From: Brachybacterium aquaticum | GTDB taxonomy: Bacteria > Actinomycetota > Actinomycetes > Actinomycetales > Dermabacteraceae | Length of the DNA: 64,000 nucleotides | Assembly: GCF_014204755.1 (NCBI RefSeq) | Contig: NZ_JACHLZ010000001.1 | Coordinates: 3,038,001-3,102,000 of the forward strand | Direction of reading: 5' to 3' | Part shown: positions 20,546 through 27,586 of the stretch, in pieces | Layout: every line of letters begins with the position of its first letter | Position numbering within the stretch: the stretch's first letter is position 1 | Program-made: the position numbers and the translations under genes | The notes under the pieces: model-generated | Database searches by the model: none | What the model saw: the letters and a program-made list of their open reading frames with translations, nothing else | Told to the model about the DNA's origin: nothing

Positions 20546-21847
20546 GGGGCTCTTCACGAACGAGGGTGTAGTCGGTTGAGCGCGTCGGTGGCCGGGTAGG
20601 GGTCGAGGTCTCCCGGATGATGGAAGTTCTTCACGCTCGCCATCCCGAAAGACCTCGACGTGCTCCACCCTACTTTCGCGACCCCTGACCTGACCACGTT
20701 CTGCCGCCTCGACGAGCTCGGCCTCGTCGCCGTCGGCCAGCTGATCGAGCCGGATCGGGCCACGATCGAATGCCGCGTCGTCGAGGACGACCCGTGGTGT
20801 CGGAAGTGCGGTGTCGAGGGCGTGCCGCGGGACACGGTCACGCGTCGACTGGCGCACGAGCCGTTCGGGCACAGGCCGACGACCCTGCTGGTGCGGGTGC
20901 GCCGGTACCGGTGCGGACACTGCCGGCGCACGTGGCGGCAGGACATGACGCGGGCAGCGGCGCCGCGTGCGAAGATCTCCCGCGGCGGCCTGGAGTGGGC
21001 GCTGCGGGGCATCGTCATCGACCACCTCACCGTCACCCGCGTCGCCGCAGGTCTCGGGGTGTCCTGGAGTGCCGCGAACGCCGCCGTCCTCGCGGAAGGC
21101 AAGCGGCGCCTGATCGACGACCCCGCCCGGTTCGACGGGGTCACCACGATCGGTGTCGACGAGCACGTCTGGCGACACACGAGGCTGGGCGACAAGTACG
21201 TCACCGTGATCATCGACCTCACGCCCGCGAGGAACAAGACCGGGCCGGCGAGGCTGCTGGACATGGTCGAGGGCCGCTCCAAGGCGGTGTTCAAGCAGTG
21301 GCTCGCCGCCCGCCCTGCGGACTGGGCGAAGCGGATCGAGGTGGTCGCGATGGACGGCTTCGCCGGGTTCAAGACCGCTGCCGCCGAGGAACTCCCCGAC
21401 GCCGTCCCCGTCATGGACCCGTTCCACGTGGTCCGCCTCACCGGCGACGCGCTGGATGTCTGCCGGCGTCGGGTCCAGCAAGACACCACCGGTCACCGCG
21501 GGCTCAAGGGCGACCCGCTCTACAAAGCCCGCCGCACCCTGCACACCGGGGCGAGCCTGCTCACCGACCGGCAGCGGGCACGCCTGGACGCAGTGTTCGC
21601 GAGCGAGGAGCACGTCGAGGTCGAGGCGACCTGGGGCATCTACCAGCGCATCGTCGCGGCCTACCGGGAGCCCGACAAGAAGAAAGCGAAGGCGATGATG
21701 CAGGAGGTGATCGCTGCGATCAGCAGCGGCGTTCCCGCGGCGCTCGTCGAGGTCCGCAAGCTCGGCCGGACCATGAAGCCGCGGGCGGGCGACATCCTCG
21801 CGTTCTTCGACCGCCCCGGCACCAGCAACGGCCCGACCGAGGCCATC

Positions 21848-22145
21848 TGTGAGTCTGGATCTGGCTGGTCTGGGACTGGCCGGTCAGGATGGATGTCGGT
21901 CGTATCGAACCGGGTGTGACTCTCGAAGCAATTGGCCCGCTTGCGGTGTCTTCCCGTTGAATTGTCCGCCCGGGTCGGTGCGGCCGACACCGTCCGGCCC
22001 ACCTCGGTGACCTCATCAGGAGACTGCCCGGCCCTCGGGCCGTGGCCCATCACAGATTCGCCCCGAAGTGACCTCTTCCCGGACCCGTGCCGGCCGCTTG
22101 GCGACCGTGACCATGTCCGTCTCGAAGAGAGGAGCGTCGATCGCC
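21848..22145 (+). ncRNA. Probable bridge RNA region of IS110 no. 1
   Basis: The non-coding left end is the place where IS110 elements encode the bridge RNA that pairs with target and donor DNA. CCCGTTGA at 21953-21960 is the exact complement of the right-hand target TCAACGGG (23234-23241). Upstream, GAAGCAA near 21926 resembles the left target GAGGCCA at five of seven positions, a weak match. The block ATTGGCCCG (21931-21939) is shared with the second IS110 element at the same place. RNA ends are not visible from sequence alone. Confidence 0.6.
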
Positions 22146-23219
22146 ATGGCTATCGTCGCGCATACCCGCCCGTTCGTCATCGGCGTGGATACCCACGCCC
22201 GCAACCACGCTGTCTCGATCCTGGCCTGCCCGACGGGCGAGATTGTCGATGAGGCTCAGTTTCCCGCAACGGCAGCAGGCTTGTCACGCGCGGTGTCTTG
22301 GGTCGGGCGCCGCACCGGAGGGGACCTCGACACGCTGTGGGTGATCGAGGGCACCGGCACCTACGGCGCACGCCTTGCCCGCACTGCAGCAGACACCGGA
22401 CACACCGTCGTCGAGGCCCCGCGGATGAACGCTCGGGCGAACCGCGGCATCGGCAAGTCCGACCCGCTGGATGCGCGCCGCATCGCCGCAGCAGCGCTCC
22501 CGCTGCAGCAGACGCAACTGCGTCAACCGCGCGCCGACGAAGGTATTCGCGCTGCCATAAAGGTCCTGCTGGCCTCCCGCGACCACATGAGCACCGAGCG
22601 CACCGCGACGATCAACGCGCTCACCGCGCTACTGCGCGTGGTCGACCTCGGTATCGATGCCCGCCGCCCGCTCACCGCGACCCAGATCGCCACGACCGCG
22701 GCGTGGCGCACCCGCGACGAAGAGCTCGCCACGGCCACCGCCCGTGGTGAAGCGATCCGGCTCGCCAAACGCGTCGCCGCCCTCGACGGCGAGCTCAAGG
22801 AGATCACCACGCGGATCACGGACCTGGTCCGGCAGAGCCCCGCCGGTGGCCTGCTCAACCAGCCCGGCATCGGCCCAGTCACCGCCGCCGTCGCTCTGAC
22901 CGCGTGGTCACACCTGGGCCGCATTCGATCCGAGTCCGCGTTCGCCAGCCTCGCTGGAACCAGCCCCATCCCCGCGTCATCGGGCAACACCGTCCGGCAC
23001 CGGATCAACCGGGGTGGCGACCGGCGCCTCAACCGAGCACTCCACATGGCCGTCGTCACCCGCATGCGAATGGACCCGCGAACCCGCGCCTACGTCGAGC
23101 GCCGTACCGCCGAAGGGCGCACCCTCCGGGAGATCCGTCGCTGCCTCAAGCGCTACCTCGCCCGCGACATCTACCGCCGCCTCAACACCGCCGCTCAGAA
23201 TGAGCTCACCGGGGCTTGA
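22146..23219 (+). CDS. IS110 family transposase (DEDD recombinase)
   Basis: 357 residues. N-terminal RuvC-like DEDD domain: FVIGVDTHARNHAVS holds the first Asp, WVIEGTGTYG the Glu, KSDPLDARRIAA the last acidic pair. The C-terminal Tnp_20 domain has QPGIGPVTAAVAL, LAGTSPIPASSGNTVRHRIN with the likely catalytic serine, and NRGGDRRLNRALH. Such enzymes join DNA with a bridge RNA guide. ATG 22146 is chosen for the MAIVAHTRPF start, with AGAGGAG 11 nt upstream; ATG 22113 is an alternative. The gene looks intact. Confidence 0.92.
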   Translation: MAIVAHTRPFVIGVDTHARNHAVSILACPTGEIVDEAQFPATAAGLSRAVSWVGRRTGGDLDTLWVIEGTGTYGARLARTAADTGHTVVEAPRMNARANRGIGKSDPLDARRIAAAALPLQQTQLRQPRADEGIRAAIKVLLASRDHMSTERTATINALTALLRVVDLGIDARRPLTATQIATTAAWRTRDEELATATARGEAIRLAKRVAALDGELKEITTRITDLVRQSPAGGLLNQPGIGPVTAAVALTAWSHLGRIRSESAFASLAGTSPIPASSGNTVRHRINRGGDRRLNRALHMAVVTRMRMDPRTRAYVERRTAEGRTLREIRRCLKRYLARDIYRRLNTAAQNELTGA

Positions 23220-23221
23220 CA
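23216..23221 (+). promoter_or_regulatory. Outward TTGACA box at the right end of IS110 no. 1
   Basis: TTGACA overlaps the stop codon and ends 14 nt before the element border. In a circular form it would stand 17 nt before GAGTCT of the left end, a possible junction promoter for the bridge RNA. Confidence 0.5.
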
Positions 23222-23363
23222 GACATAGGAGATTCAACGGGCGACTCGAACACCTCCGCGGCTCCGCCCTCGGCTTCCGCAACCTCACCCACTACATCGC
23301 TCGGTCGCTGCTCGAAGCCGGAGGGTTCAGACCCGCGCTACACCCTCATTCGTGAAGAGCCCC

Positions 23364-24319
23364 TTCCCGCCGCCTACCAGCGCGAACGCCGCCAGCTCGC
23401 CCAGAGGCGCAAGGCGGCATTCGCGGAGGAACCCACCGGGGCGAACCAGGTATGGCAGCTGGACTTCTCCGAGTTCGAGACCAACACCGGCGGGACCTGG
23501 AGGATCGCAGGATGCCGGGACTACTGGAGCAAGTACGAGTATCCCTGGCACGTCTCTCCCACCGCGAACCAGCACGACGCGATCACCGCGATCGAGACCG
23601 CCCTGGAACACTACGAAGCCCTGTTCGGTCATCCGCTGATCGAGACCTGCCAGGCAGACGAGAACGGCGAGGTCATCCCCGCCCTCACGATCGTGACGGA
23701 CAACGGCGGCCCGTTCCGCTCATTCCGATTCGAGCACTTCATCACCAGCCATCCCGAGCTGCGCCACGTCCGCACCAGAATTCGCACTCCGGGACAGAAC
23801 GGGTCCCGTGAACGCGGGTTCGGCACGCTAAAGTACGAAAGACTGTTCCTCGAGGAGATCGACGACGTCCTGGCGCTGGTCGAGCACGCCGACGCCTACC
23901 GCAGCGAGTACAACCAGATCCGTCCTCACGAGGCCCTGGCCTGGAACCGACCGCTGGACGTCCACCTCGACCACGCCGACCCCTACACCCCTACCTTTCC
24001 CACCACCGAAAACGTGCCAACTACTTTACGCGGGACAGTTGTTGTTGTCATGATGGTGGTCTGCCTTCCTGATGGTGGGCACGTCGGTCGGGGGCCGGGC
24101 AGACAAGACGTTGATGGGGCTCTCCAGGCTCATATGAGGTCATGCAAGGCCTTCGACCGGCGCTCCTCGTCGGTCACCCCACCGGCGAAGGGGTCGTGGA
24201 CGGTTCAGATCAAAGACAGACCCCCTGCGGGGCCGCCAGTCAAGTTTCGGGTCACACGCCCCCTTGCCGGGGGACAGTTACATCCTCTACGTCTAGGTTT
24301 GGCAGAACCATTCAGATAA
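23364..24319 (+). pseudogene. Integrase-core (DDE) transposase, N-terminus lost
   Basis: The frame enters from the right end of the ISL3 element, so the N-terminal DNA-binding part is gone. What remains is an rve integrase core: ANQVWQLDFSEFE (first Asp), TIVTDNGGPFRSFRF (second Asp), GSRERGFGTLKYERLF (Glu), then ADAYRSEYNQIRPHEALAW, typical of IS481/IS3-like enzymes. After PTFPTTENVPTT, near 24017, the frame runs on into apparently non-coding DNA up to 24319, so the true end is probably altered too. Confidence 0.75.
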
Positions 24320-24341
24320 CCACACGAAGGAGCGGTGCATC
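24018..24341. other. Non-coding stretch between integrase remnant and cynS
   Basis: No convincing gene. It holds two small GC hairpins, CCCCTGCGGGG near 24222 and CCCCCTTGCCGGGGG near 24261, and looks like leftover insertion-sequence end DNA. The cynS promoter is presumably here; ATCCTCTACGTCTAGG near 24281 is the only promoter-like patch I see. Confidence 0.35.
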
Positions 24342-24785
24342 ATGAACGAGGCCAAGGCGAAGGCTGCCGAGGAGATCCGGGCGACGAAACAGAGGGAGGG
24401 ACTCTCCTGGGCCGAGATCGCCGAGGCGATCGGCAAGCCGAAGGAGTGGACCGTCTCCGCCCTCCTCGGGCAGCATCCCGTCCCCGAGGATGCGGCGGTG
24501 AAGGTGGGCGAACTGCTCGGGCTCAGCGACGAGTCGGTGCAGGCGCTGCAGCGTCAGCCCTACCGGACGGGGCTTGGCGATGCCGCCAACGATCCGACGA
24601 TCTACCGCTTCATCGAGGCGATCAACGTCTACGGCCCGGCGATCAAGGAGTTGATCCACGAGGAGTTCGGCGACGGGATCATGAGCGCGATCAACTTCAA
24701 GCTCGACGTGTCCCGACGGCCCGACCCCTCGGGTGACCGGGTCGTGGTGACCCTCGACGGCAAGTTCCTCGACTACAACTGGTGA
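24342..24785 (+). CDS. cynS: Cyanate hydratase (cyanase)
   Basis: 147 residues, close to the usual 147-156. The N-terminal helical domain (AEEIRATKQREGLSWAEIAE) and C-terminal active-site domain are complete. Arg89, Glu92 and Ser115 in DPTIYRFIEAINVYGPAI and GDGIMSAINFKLD have the same spacing (3 and 23) as the catalytic Arg96, Glu99 and Ser122 of the E. coli enzyme. It converts cyanate and bicarbonate to ammonia and carbon dioxide in the cytosol. GAAGGAG lies 9 nt before the ATG. No transporter or carbonic anhydrase gene is beside it; it is stranded between insertion elements, so it was either brought in by them or isolated by them. Confidence 0.95.
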   Translation: MNEAKAKAAEEIRATKQREGLSWAEIAEAIGKPKEWTVSALLGQHPVPEDAAVKVGELLGLSDESVQALQRQPYRTGLGDAANDPTIYRFIEAINVYGPAIKELIHEEFGDGIMSAINFKLDVSRRPDPSGDRVVVTLDGKFLDYNW

Positions 24786-24792
24786 CCGGGTC

Positions 24793-24816
24793 GGCGGCAC
24801 CGGCCTCGGTGCCGCC
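24793..24816. terminator. Terminator hairpin of cynS
   Basis: Perfect 10-bp arms GGCGGCACCG and CGGTGCCGCC with loop GCCT, 7 nt after the stop codon. Confidence 0.7.
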
Positions 24817-24903
24817 GTCATCGGTTCATGGGATGAGTCGGCTCACTTCTTGGACTGAAGCGCCCTGGGTTCCGTTCCGAGTCTCAGCAAGGAGAATCGG
24901 AGT

Positions 24904-25488
24904 ATGCCCAAGAAGTTCAGTCCGGAGCTGCGTGACCGTGCCGTGCGCATGGTCTACGACCGCCAGGCACTCGAAGGTGGCCCACGATCGGAGTCGATCC
25001 GAGCTGTCGCGCCCCAACTCGGCGTTGGCATGGAGACGCTGAGGATCTGGTGCAACCGCTACGGGCCAGCCGAGCCCTCGGCCGGCCCCGCGGAGTCTCT
25101 CGAGGAGGAGAACCGCAGACTGCGTCGAGAGCTCGCCGAGTCCCGGCGGGCCAACGAGATCCTCAAGGCCGCCTCCGTGTTTTTCGCCAGGGAACCAGGC
25201 CACCCCACGACGAAAAGATTGCCTTCATCGATAGGCATCGCGATCACTTCGGGGTCGAGGCCATCTGCCGCGTCCTGGGCGCGACGGAACGTGGGTTCCT
25301 CACCTCTCGCGGCTACCGTGCCGCGAAGCAGCGCCCGGCATCGGCCAGAGCGGTCCGTGACGAGGTGCTCGTCGAAGAGATCCGTCGGATTCATGCCGAG
25401 AACTACGGCCTCTACGGGTATCGGAAGATGCATCACGCGATGCGCCGTGCCGGATGGGAAGTCGGCCGCGACCAGACCGCTCGGCTGA
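24904..25488 (+). CDS. IS3 transposase OrfA (open frame runs into orfB region)
   Basis: The first 96 or so residues are OrfA: KFSPELRDRAVRMVYDRQ, a helix-turn-helix (IRAVAPQLGVGMETLRIWC) and a leucine-zipper-like coiled coil (LEEENRRLRRELAESRRANE, ILKAASVFF). The frame stays open to 25488, but the extra residues are out-of-frame orfB sequence. GTGTTTTTCG near 25177-25186 is a good slippery site for the -1 shift that makes the OrfAB fusion in this family. ATG 24904 has AAGGAG 11 nt upstream. Confidence 0.75.
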   Translation: MPKKFSPELRDRAVRMVYDRQALEGGPRSESIRAVAPQLGVGMETLRIWCNRYGPAEPSAGPAESLEEENRRLRRELAESRRANEILKAASVFFAREPGHPTTKRLPSSIGIAITSGSRPSAASWARRNVGSSPLAATVPRSSARHRPERSVTRCSSKRSVGFMPRTTASTGIGRCITRCAVPDGKSAATRPLG

Positions 25489-25913
25489 TGAAAGCTGCTG
25501 GTCTGTGCGGGATACGCCGTGGTCGAAAGGTGTTCACGACGAGCCCTGCTGGTGGCCTGGACCGTCGTCCTGATCTGGTCGAGCGGAACTTCACGGCTGC
25601 CGGACCGAATCAGCTCTGGGTCGCTGACATCACCTACGTCCGGATCCCGTCCGGGTTCTGCTACACCGCGTTCATCACAGACGTTTTCACGCGAAGGATC
25701 GTCGGCTGGGCAGTGGCCACCAGCCTCCGCACTGAGGCACTGCCACTGCAGGCTCTCGAGCAGGCCCTCCAGACCTCCCCGGCAGAAGCGTCTCGGACTG
25801 GGCTGACCCATCACAGCGATAGGGGCAACAACTACGTCTCGCTGGCCTACTCCGATGCGCTGATCACCGCCGGAGTCCAGGCCTCGGTCGGATCCGTCGG
25901 AGACAGCTACGAC

Positions 25914-26174
25914 TGTCAGTCTCTTTCTACCCGGTCCCGCGAGGATTGGGGAGCCCCGGCCGGCGCGGTCTGACCCTTGCTTACGATTGGCCCGAGTGGT
26001 GCCTTTGCGTTGATCTGTCGACCGCCCGGCCGGGCACGCAGTAAGCGCTGCCGCCGGATCGGGCGTGACCTAATAGGAGCCTGGAGCAGCATGTCGAGAG
26101 CGTCCCCGTGACAGTCCTGTCCACCCGCCGGCGACAGCGTGAGACCACGTTAACCGTCAAGGGAGACAGGCACC
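25914..26174 (+). ncRNA. Probable bridge RNA region of IS110 no. 2
   Basis: Non-coding left end of 261 bp. GCGTTGA at 26007-26013 is the complement of TCAACGC at the right border (27260-27266). TTACGAT at 25981-25987 shares TACGA with the left target CTACGAC. ATTGGCCCG (25986-25994) sits between the two candidate guides, as in element no. 1. Distances from the left border to the right-target guide are 93 and 105 nt in the two elements. Confidence 0.6.
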
Positions 26175-27245
26175 ATGAGCACACTCGAAACCGTCCGCTC
26201 CGGGCACGTCGTCATCGGCGTCGACACCCATAAGCACATCCATGTCGCCGCCGTGCTCGACACCATCGGCGGCATCCTGGCGACACTCACCGTCCCCACC
26301 GACACGGGTGGCTTCGAGCAGCTTCTCACCTGGGCGGACTCGTTCGGCAAGGTCCTTGCGTTCGGCATCGAGGGCACCGGTTCCTATGGTGCGACGTTGA
26401 CATCGTTCCTGCGCCGCCACGGACACAAGGTCGTCGAAGCAGGACGCCCTGATCGCCGCCAGCGGCGCCTGAACGGGAAATCCGACACCCTCGACGCGGA
26501 GAACGCCGCCCGCTCCGTGCTCGCGGGGTTCGCGACGGTCATTCCGAAGACCGCGGACAGCAGCGTCGAGATGATCAGGCAGCTCAAGATCGCGCACGAT
26601 TCAGCCGTGACCGACCGCTCCGCCGCGATGATCTCGATGAAGGCGATGCTCGTCCACGCCGACGACACGCTGCGCCGGGAGACGAACCGGATGACGCCGA
26701 TCAAGCTCGCCCGACACCTCGCAGCGCTGCGCCCTCGCAACCTCGAGACGCCCGCAGACTCTCTCCGCCATGCGCTGCGGTCACTGGCCCGCAGATGGCA
26801 GCACCTGGACAGCGAAGCCAAGGAACTAAGGGCGTCGATCGAGGCGCTCGTCATTCGCACCGCACCCCAGCTGCTGGAGCAGTTCGGCATCGGCGTCGAT
26901 ACCGCAGCCGAGATCCTGATCGTCGCTGGCGACAACCCCGAGCGGATCCACTCCGAAGCCGCATTCGCGAAGCTCGCCGGTATCAGCCCCGTCCCGACCG
27001 GTTCCGGGATGACCAGCGGTCGACATCGCATCAACCACGGCGGCCATCGGCAGCTGAACGCCGCGATCTACCGCACCGTGATCGTCCGGATGAGGTTCCA
27101 CGAGCCGACCATCGCCTACGTCGCCCGTCGGACCGCCGAAGGCAAGAGCAAGCGCGACATCATCCGCTGCCTGAAGCGCTACGTCATCCGCGAGGTCTAC
27201 CAACTCATCAAGGTCAACCCCCGCACCGGCGAAATCGCGGGTTGA
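26175..27245 (+). CDS. IS110 family transposase (DEDD recombinase)
   Basis: 356 residues with all parts of the family: HVVIGVDTHKHIHVAAVLD (first Asp), AFGIEGTGSYGATL (Glu), NGKSDTLDAENAARS (acidic pair), and in the C-terminal domain QFGIGVDTAAEILI, LAGISPVPTGSGMTSGRHRI with the probable catalytic Ser, and NHGGHRQLNAAIYR. AAGGGAGA lies about 10 nt before ATG 26175. Intact and probably active. Its last 49 codons are repeated nearly exactly at 31923-32070. Confidence 0.92.
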   Translation: MSTLETVRSGHVVIGVDTHKHIHVAAVLDTIGGILATLTVPTDTGGFEQLLTWADSFGKVLAFGIEGTGSYGATLTSFLRRHGHKVVEAGRPDRRQRRLNGKSDTLDAENAARSVLAGFATVIPKTADSSVEMIRQLKIAHDSAVTDRSAAMISMKAMLVHADDTLRRETNRMTPIKLARHLAALRPRNLETPADSLRHALRSLARRWQHLDSEAKELRASIEALVIRTAPQLLEQFGIGVDTAAEILIVAGDNPERIHSEAAFAKLAGISPVPTGSGMTSGRHRINHGGHRQLNAAIYRTVIVRMRFHEPTIAYVARRTAEGKSKRDIIRCLKRYVIREVYQLIKVNPRTGEIAG

Positions 27246-27467
27246 CAACTATAGGAGCGTCAACGCCCTGGCTGAGACCGCCAACGGCCTCTACAAAGCC
27301 GAGCTCATCCACCGACGCCGCACCTGGCCCTCAGCGACCGCCGTCGAGATCGCCACTCTGGACTGGGTCACCTGGTGGAACACGAAGCGCCTGCACGAAG
27401 CACTCGACTATCGCACCCCGGCCGAAGTCGAAGCGGCCTACACTCACCCCACGACGACCGCGCCCGC
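27097..27467 (+). repeat. 371-bp direct repeat, left copy
   Basis: Covers the last 49 codons of the IS110 transposase, the IS110 right end and most of the IS3 orfB tail. The same 371 bp, with about four differences (for example Gln to His in the transposase tail), are present at 31923-32293. Confidence 0.95.
27242..27247 (+). promoter_or_regulatory. Outward TTGACA box at the right end of IS110 no. 2
   Basis: Same arrangement as in element no. 1: TTGACA overlaps the stop codon, 14 nt from the border; on a circle it would be 17 nt from CAGTCT of the left end. Confidence 0.5.
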
Positions 27468-27586
27468 GACCGTCTAACCACGGAACGGAACCCAGGGCGC
27501 TTCAATCCGGGCTTCTTAGCCGACCTGATCGCGCTGATGCTCAAGCTGTGATCACCAGCAGGCGAGATCTTCACAGGCCGCACGTG

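Follow-up and report, generated by a model that had tools for sequence, protein, structure and literature searches.

What leads an insertion sequence into one particular codon of another element's transposase gene? This question is raised by a 64-kb window of the Brachybacterium aquaticum genome (the whole stretch that was analysed, bases 3038001–3102000 of a single-contig 3.45-Mb genome), in which two IS110-group elements, referred to as element 1 and element 2, split an ISL3 and an IS3 transposase gene, respectively. A sequence-only reading of the window had proposed that short words in the left ends of the elements are guides complementary to their own target sites, as expected of bridge RNAs. 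This proposal is supported here by covariance models, folds, guide–target covariation and flat controls in the target tests. With a probability of about 96%, both elements are IS110-group insertion sequences that combine a DEDD recombinase with an upstream bridge RNA in the left end, by which scarless insertion is guided.

The anatomy of the elements, their homology, the scarless junctions and the covariation of the guides were observed directly. Both recombinases exceed the 140-bit cut-off of NF033542, the NCBIfam model "IS110 family RNA-guided transposase", and both contain the IS110-family Pfam pair DEDD_Tnp_IS110 (PF01548) and Transposase_20 (PF02371). The catalytic residues of IS621 (D11, E60, D102, D105 and S241) align in both proteins, as read by eye from phmmer alignments to 8wt6, of which the chain numbering is offset by 2; the residue names are those of PMC11208158. 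The two proteins are about 40% identical to each other. The left ends measure 298 nt (element 1) and 261 nt (element 2). The stop codon is followed by 16 bp in both elements, so that the long RNA-bearing right end of the IS1111 type is absent. Both right ends terminate in TC; immediately left of the insertion point, either C or T is found. TTGAC, the putative −35 box of a circle-junction promoter that would have its −10 box in the left end, is present in 67 of 70 distinct right ends; the right-end pattern was loosened from TAGGAG so that ends with TAGAAG, as in element 1's wider lineage, were also covered. Elsewhere in the same genome, element 1 has one more identical copy and element 2 has two more full copies plus one right-end fragment.

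Intact versions of the interrupted genes in related genomes reveal what the sites looked like before insertion. Eleven of the 14 ISL3-gene loci returned were compared: seven were intact, three (the window included) had an IS110 at the identical position, and one was unaligned. Nine of the 14 IS3-gene loci returned were compared in the same way, giving six intact, two interrupted (again including the window) and one unaligned. Two of the intact ISL3 loci, both from other genomes, match the flanks in the window at 24/24 bases on the left and 40/40 on the right; for the best two intact IS3 loci, also from other genomes, the values are 24/24 and 39/40. Since intact copies match both flanks, the insertions were scarless and without target duplication. 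The empty sites read ATC/AACGGG for element 1 and GAC/AACGCC for element 2 (a slash marks the insertion point). The complement of the guides had been given as TCAACGG and TCAACGC at the junctions. This match exists in the occupied sites, but its TC belongs to the element, being the final dinucleotide of the right end in both cases. As the empty site of element 1 holds a TC of its own, the target of this element includes TC; the empty site of element 2 reduces the genuine target complementarity to CAACGC. Some relatives occupy GAT/AAC instead of GAC/AAC, with the right end still ending in TC. If GAT was the sequence before insertion, top-strand exchange would be placed just after that base, as in IS621 (PMC11208158).

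Because Rfam offered no bridge-RNA family here, covariance models were built from relatives, using ten elements for training and excluding both element 1 and element 2. With model R1, the two left ends rank first and second in the window (E 1.5e-32 and 2.9e-4), and they do so again with R2, a 70-position model of the target loop (E 4.2e-10 for element 1, and E 1.3e-4 at 25959–26030 for element 2). When R2 was applied to 29 chosen loci with E up to 1, the left end was matched in all 20 IS110-bearing loci and in none of the nine loci where the site was uninterrupted or had been found through the target pattern alone; three of the 20 matches exceed E 0.01, L015, a training element, and its near-copies make up four of the 20, and one element recurs in several of the others. 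Twelve element-1-like left ends, that of element 1 among them, give a consensus fold with 64 pairs, 30 of them with kept double changes. This fold consists of a 5' stem-loop, a target-binding stem and a donor-binding stem, each of the two stems with an open internal loop. The same layout of 5' stem-loop, target loop and donor loop is given for the IS621 bridge RNA (PMC11208160). A two-domain fold with 53 pairs, 18 with double changes, was obtained from 19 element-2-like left ends. As a single sequence, element 1 (21863–22070) folds with z −4.41, and 0/200 shuffles are as good. Covariance models and folds, the first check suggested for the left ends, thus point to a bridge RNA in each.

Both target guide words of the sequence-only reading, CCCGTTGA in element 1 and GCGTTGA in element 2, lie where it had placed them (Table 1). 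CCCGTTGA has a single occurrence on the + strand of the window, as has its complement, which lies at the junction. In 20000 random draws from the window, a complement of an 8-mer appeared by chance in a 298-nt stretch at a frequency of 0.022, and that of a 7-mer in 261 nt at 0.057. The two cases alone are therefore suggestive, not decisive, and it is the relatives that decide.

The fetched loci contained 152 element hits, several loci repeating one element. Usable left ends with left flanks were available in 95 rows, which were dereplicated on shared 8-mers to 38, both lineages of the window included. Rows lacking a usable left end or flank, and L168, L123 and L109, in which the start motif was misplaced, were kept out of the guide, donor and left-flank counts. 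Across the 38 elements, the left guide agrees with the last nine bases of its own left flank at 7.03/9 positions versus 5.41 after permutation (z 10.8, 0/20000), and in the 23 elements with a non-[YF]D target at 7.39/9 versus 5.29 (z 10.2). For z 10.8, the left guide region was anchored on the right guide, by which shorter left ends are recovered. An alignment-free test over nine bases, which uses the fixed left-end stretch 50–150 and misses the left guides of shorter left ends, gave z 7.9. Five controls, in which antisense words, adjacent parts of the flank or a different stretch of the left end were used, were flat (absolute z at most 1.2). Left guides that match exactly over nine bases were found in four elements: CAAGTTGAC (L139), AAAAACAAC (L158), GGGTAGAAC (L029) and TGTGACAAC (L140).

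The right guide was located solely through its position before TGTC and was scored against the five right-flank bases next to the element. It fits its own target at 141/165 positions (n = 33, z 8.9, 0/50000), with 23 elements at 5/5, three at 4/5 and seven at 3/5 or below. When AAYGC targets are set aside, the fit is 3.65/5 versus 1.54 permuted (n = 17, z 8.0). Examples at other flanks are CTAATGA for ATTAGG (L154), GCTGTGA for ACAGC (L025) and CCCGGGA for CCGGG (L015). The guides vary in this way between elements whose surrounding RNA remains alignable. The covariation that had been proposed as a check is thus present on both sides. The refuting condition of the sequence-only reading, an unchanged CGTTGA word at differing target flanks, was examined as well and does not overturn the proposal: where flanks differ, CGTTGA mostly changes along with the right flank.

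The donor loops behave similarly with respect to the element's own ends. It was found that the letter of the right donor guide facing element position 4 is complementary to it in 36/38 dereplicated elements (18 G-C, 14 C-G, 4 A-T) and was not found in the other two; with repeats counted, it is complementary in 93/95 rows. The right end compared with its own left donor guide region exceeds permutation (z 6.4), as does the element start compared with its own right donor guide region (z 7.1).

Several observations weigh against a bridge RNA in both elements. Rfam at gathering thresholds gave no match anywhere in the window, and the bridge RNAs are predicted here from sequence. That of element 2 is the weaker match to R1 (E 2.9e-4), and its single-sequence fold only modestly beats shuffles (z −2.10, 5/200). 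Both left guides are imperfect, in agreement with the weaker left matches described earlier: GAAGCAATT and GAGGCCATC of element 1 are identical at 6/9 positions with one G-U, and GCTTACGAT and AGCTACGAC of element 2 at 5/9 with two G-U. The permutation tests ignore kinship among the elements, and both controls of the donor test are off zero, with z 3.5 for the right end read antisense and z −2.7 for the element start read in sense. L018 has an unrelated right flank, TGAGGC, and seven of the 33 right guides fit poorly (out of five, L002 3, L099 2, L084 0, L100 3, L139 2, L128 3 and L140 1). These poor fits may be tolerated mismatches or later rearrangements.

Three of the poor fits bear on the idea that CGTTGA is a fixed structural word of the left end, which would match the flank by coincidence or through shared ancestry of the two elements. 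L099, L084 and L100, members of element 2's lineage, were counted as misses since they retain GCGTTGA beside another right flank. CGTTGA is also nearly constant throughout this lineage, and chance produces such words at the two frequencies given above. However, the target in this lineage is nearly as constant: the in-frame reading N[AS]xx[EK] is found in 58/75 distinct right flanks, and N-A opens six of the other 17, two of those six ending at a contig edge. Across lineages the word varies with the target, and so do the left guides, which makes a fixed word very improbable. The guide-like words could otherwise be left over from earlier target sites that the left end had captured, with the target being read directly by the recombinase protein. 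Close relatives do have both protein and target in common, and the bridge RNA was deduced here from the letters of the DNA. Against this stand elements of the same genus with proteins 54–67% identical to element 1, of which the unrelated targets track their own loops. Within a covarying fold, moreover, the loops keep a constant position, and their strand sense on the left is opposite to that on the right; the donor guides also follow the ends of the element. Direct reading by the protein is hence hardly to be expected, and guidance by a bridge RNA is the preferred explanation.

In the mechanism proposed for such guidance, each element encodes its DEDD recombinase, and the part of the left end upstream of this gene would give rise to a bridge RNA that has one loop for binding the target and another for binding the donor. 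Of the two target guides, the left one, which carries the top-strand sequence left of the insertion point, would pair with the bottom strand, and the right one would pair with the top strand on the right side. The donor guides would read both ends of the element. The complex of recombinase and RNA would then join the circular element to the chosen site without a scar. The guide of element 1 would thereby read the TEAI/NG codons of ISL3 transposases and that of element 2 the SYD/NA codons of IS3 transposases; the glutamate just after the latter site is taken by us to be catalytic. Expression of the RNA, its binding, the circle and the chemistry of strand exchange are presumed by analogy with IS621 and ISEc21.

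Table 1. Features of the two IS110-group elements and of the genes that they interrupt (window positions; bridge RNAs and guides are predictions).
Feature	Position	Strand	Description
Element 1, complete IS110-group insertion sequence	21848–23235	+	1388 bp
Bridge RNA of element 1, 5' stem-loop	21863–21881	+	consensus and single-sequence folds
Bridge RNA of element 1, target-binding and donor-binding domains	21882–22070	+	model R1 153.4 bits, E 1.5e-32
Left target guide of element 1, CGAAGCAATT	21924–21933	+	open internal-loop columns; same sense as left target CGAGGCCATC
Right target guide of element 1, CCCGTTGA	21953–21960	+	complement of TCAACGGG at right junction
Left donor guide of element 1, CAGGAGAC	22017–22024	+	resembles own right end ATAGGAGATTC
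Right donor guide of element 1, TCACAG	22050–22055	+	complement of C+TGTGA at element start
DEDD recombinase gene of element 1	22146–23219	+	357 aa; NF033542 187.7 bits
Right-end TTGACA of element 1	23216–23221	+	-35 of expected circle-junction promoter
Element 2, complete IS110-group insertion sequence	25914–27261	+	1348 bp
Bridge RNA of element 2	25939–26130	+	model R1 25.4 bits, E 2.9e-4; consensus fold
Left target guide of element 2, TTACGAT	25981–25987	+	same sense as left target CTACGAC
Right target guide of element 2, GCGTTGA	26007–26013	+	complement of (T)CAACGC
Left donor guide of element 2, AATAGGAGCCT	26072–26082	+	resembles own right end TATAGGAGCGTC
Right donor guide of element 2, TGACAG	26109–26114	+	complement of C+TGTCA at element start
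DEDD recombinase gene of element 2	26175–27245	+	356 aa; NF033542 165.3 bits
ISL3 transposase gene, 5' part	20660–21847	+	broken after ...TSNGPTEAI; NF033550 321.4 bits; PF01610
ISL3 transposase gene, 3' part	23236–23355	+	NGRLEHLRG...
IS3-family transposase genes, 5' part	24904–25913	+	broken after ...GDSYD; NF033516 210.8 bits over 25050–25913; rve domain
IS3 transposase gene, 3' part	27262–27477	+	NALAET...

The choice of targets can be followed through element 2's lineage, defined by at least 44% protein identity. Its members are mostly found at the same codons of IS3 transposases, SYD/NAxxE, and 45/50 distinct left flanks finish in frame on an Asp codon in the pattern used. The right guide is nearly constant as GCGTTGA because the N-A codons stay. 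The left guide varies with the IS3 subgroup, reading SYD or SFD mostly, CWD in L077 and AGD in L096 and L099. A Pfam search of ten left flanks returned rve in all seven of element 2's lineage and in one of element 1's wider lineage; the remaining two belong to an ISL3 transposase and a solute-binding protein. The carrier records include actinobacteria, a Halomonas and bacteria that we take to be alphaproteobacteria. At the third base of the Tyr or Phe codon, the combination of guide U with target C was seen eight times, and that of guide C with target T, which does not pair, three times (51 rows, near-identical copies included). These counts merely hint that a guide could cover synonymous codons through G-U pairing. 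As a general design this was rejected, since the guide of element 1 has A at two third positions.

Sites that resemble the target and stand empty were also found. An exact search of the same genome for TAYGAYAAYGC gave two uninterrupted sites besides the three that hold full copies of element 2; judged by eye, one of the two lies in an IS3-transposase-like frame and the other in an unrelated one. An unoccupied site of this kind in the same genome is L171, where TACGACAACGC is an exact 11-base match to element 2's target in a frame unlike a transposase.

Element 1 and its close relatives occupy TEAI/NG of ISL3 transposases. Its second copy (L002) is a natural off-target insertion inside a solute-binding protein gene (PF00496), where the left target is of the same quality as at the ISL3 site and the right side shares only TCAAC. 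Other relatives of element 1, L022–L024, are inserted at HHYNY/HRPH in the codons of an rve-type transposase; the left flank of L022 matches rve, and the left guide of L022 and L023 matches at 8/9 bases. A third intact IS110 lineage (L003–L006), with 55% protein identity to element 1, has four copies in the same genome at TGAATCGNC/CCNGG. In two of these four copies, the open frame to the right is presumably the start of an IS3 OrfA, and this IS110 may target the ends of IS3-type elements. In aiming at apparent IS3 ends it may resemble IS4321/IS5075 of the IS1111 group, which reportedly insert into the ends of Tn21-family transposons. IS4321/IS5075 are, like elements 1 and 2, DEDD elements aimed at another mobile element, but they differ from both in belonging to the IS1111 group and in having a terminal-repeat target.

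Elements 1 and 2 belong to a known kind of system, as IS110 bridge RNAs, or seekRNAs, are already established (PMC11208160, PMC11208158, PMC11187229). With IS621 they share a DEDD and serine recombinase, a left-end RNA (predicted here) with a 5' stem-loop, a target loop with left and right guides and a donor loop, and they have a putative counterpart of its right-end −35 box (Durrant et al. 2024, PMC11208160; Hiraizumi et al. 2024, PMC11208158). Their recombinases are remote from that of IS621, with whole-protein E values of 6e-13 (element 1) and 2e-7 (element 2). REP sequences are the targets of IS621, the core of which is CT, whereas the right end here finishes in TC and the left junction base is C or T. 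The CT core dinucleotide of the IS621 subgroup is thus absent from both elements; it was described for IS621 and related orthologues, not for the whole IS110 family (PMC11208158). A further comparison is with ISEc21, of which Siddiquee et al. (2024, PMC11187229) located the target in IS3 transposase genes, at the codons surrounding the second D of DDE; an upstream non-coding RNA, the use of catalytic-domain codons of IS3 transposases and the lack of target duplication are shared. Element 2 is instead at SYD/NA, and element 1 is in ISL3 transposases. Natural redirection was also described for a relative of ISEc21 (PMC11187229). ISKrh6 of Kocuria rhizophila is likewise an actinobacterial IS110 with an assigned seekRNA region (PMC12500396); its exact ends and target are left open in that paper, whereas ends and targets were read here. 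No report of elements 1 or 2, of the SYD/NA and TEAI/NG sites, or of a constant right guide combined with a retuned left guide was found in the accessible parts of the open-access literature. Either element may already have an IS name in ISfinder.

This known kind of system gains interest from the fact that conserved codons of other transposases are targeted repeatedly. There is about an even chance that a widespread set of IS110 elements are RNA-guided parasites, with bridge RNAs tuned to conserved transposase codons. In element 2's lineage, the right guide would then be held on the N-A codons of IS3 and the left guide retuned among subgroups, and each such insertion would split a competitor's gene beside the catalytic glutamate. 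The targets suggest a rule by which guides are aimed at codons that transposases cannot easily change, and a site of this kind is therefore present in many copies, conserved and seldom essential for the host. The elements also add to the natural bridge-RNA systems of which ends, guides and targets can be read off scarless natural insertions, here with a TC end and not CT. From the series of retuned left guides found in nature, it could be measured how few changes are enough to redirect a bridge RNA.

Between elements 1 and 2, an integrase-like transposase fragment was read by eye at 23360–24010, given which the stretch 20660–27500 is a pile-up of nested and truncated insertion sequences. A truncated third IS110 left end also lies between the two elements, on the minus strand at 24049–24264 (R2 match 24189–24264, E 3.1e-4), with donor-loop-like words and the apparent first codons of a gene. 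A search of 37 further genomes of the genus gave matches of 24–39 bases to it but no close copy. Over 103 bases, the donor part of this left end shares 80.6% identity with IS110 elements carried by Rhodococcus plasmids.

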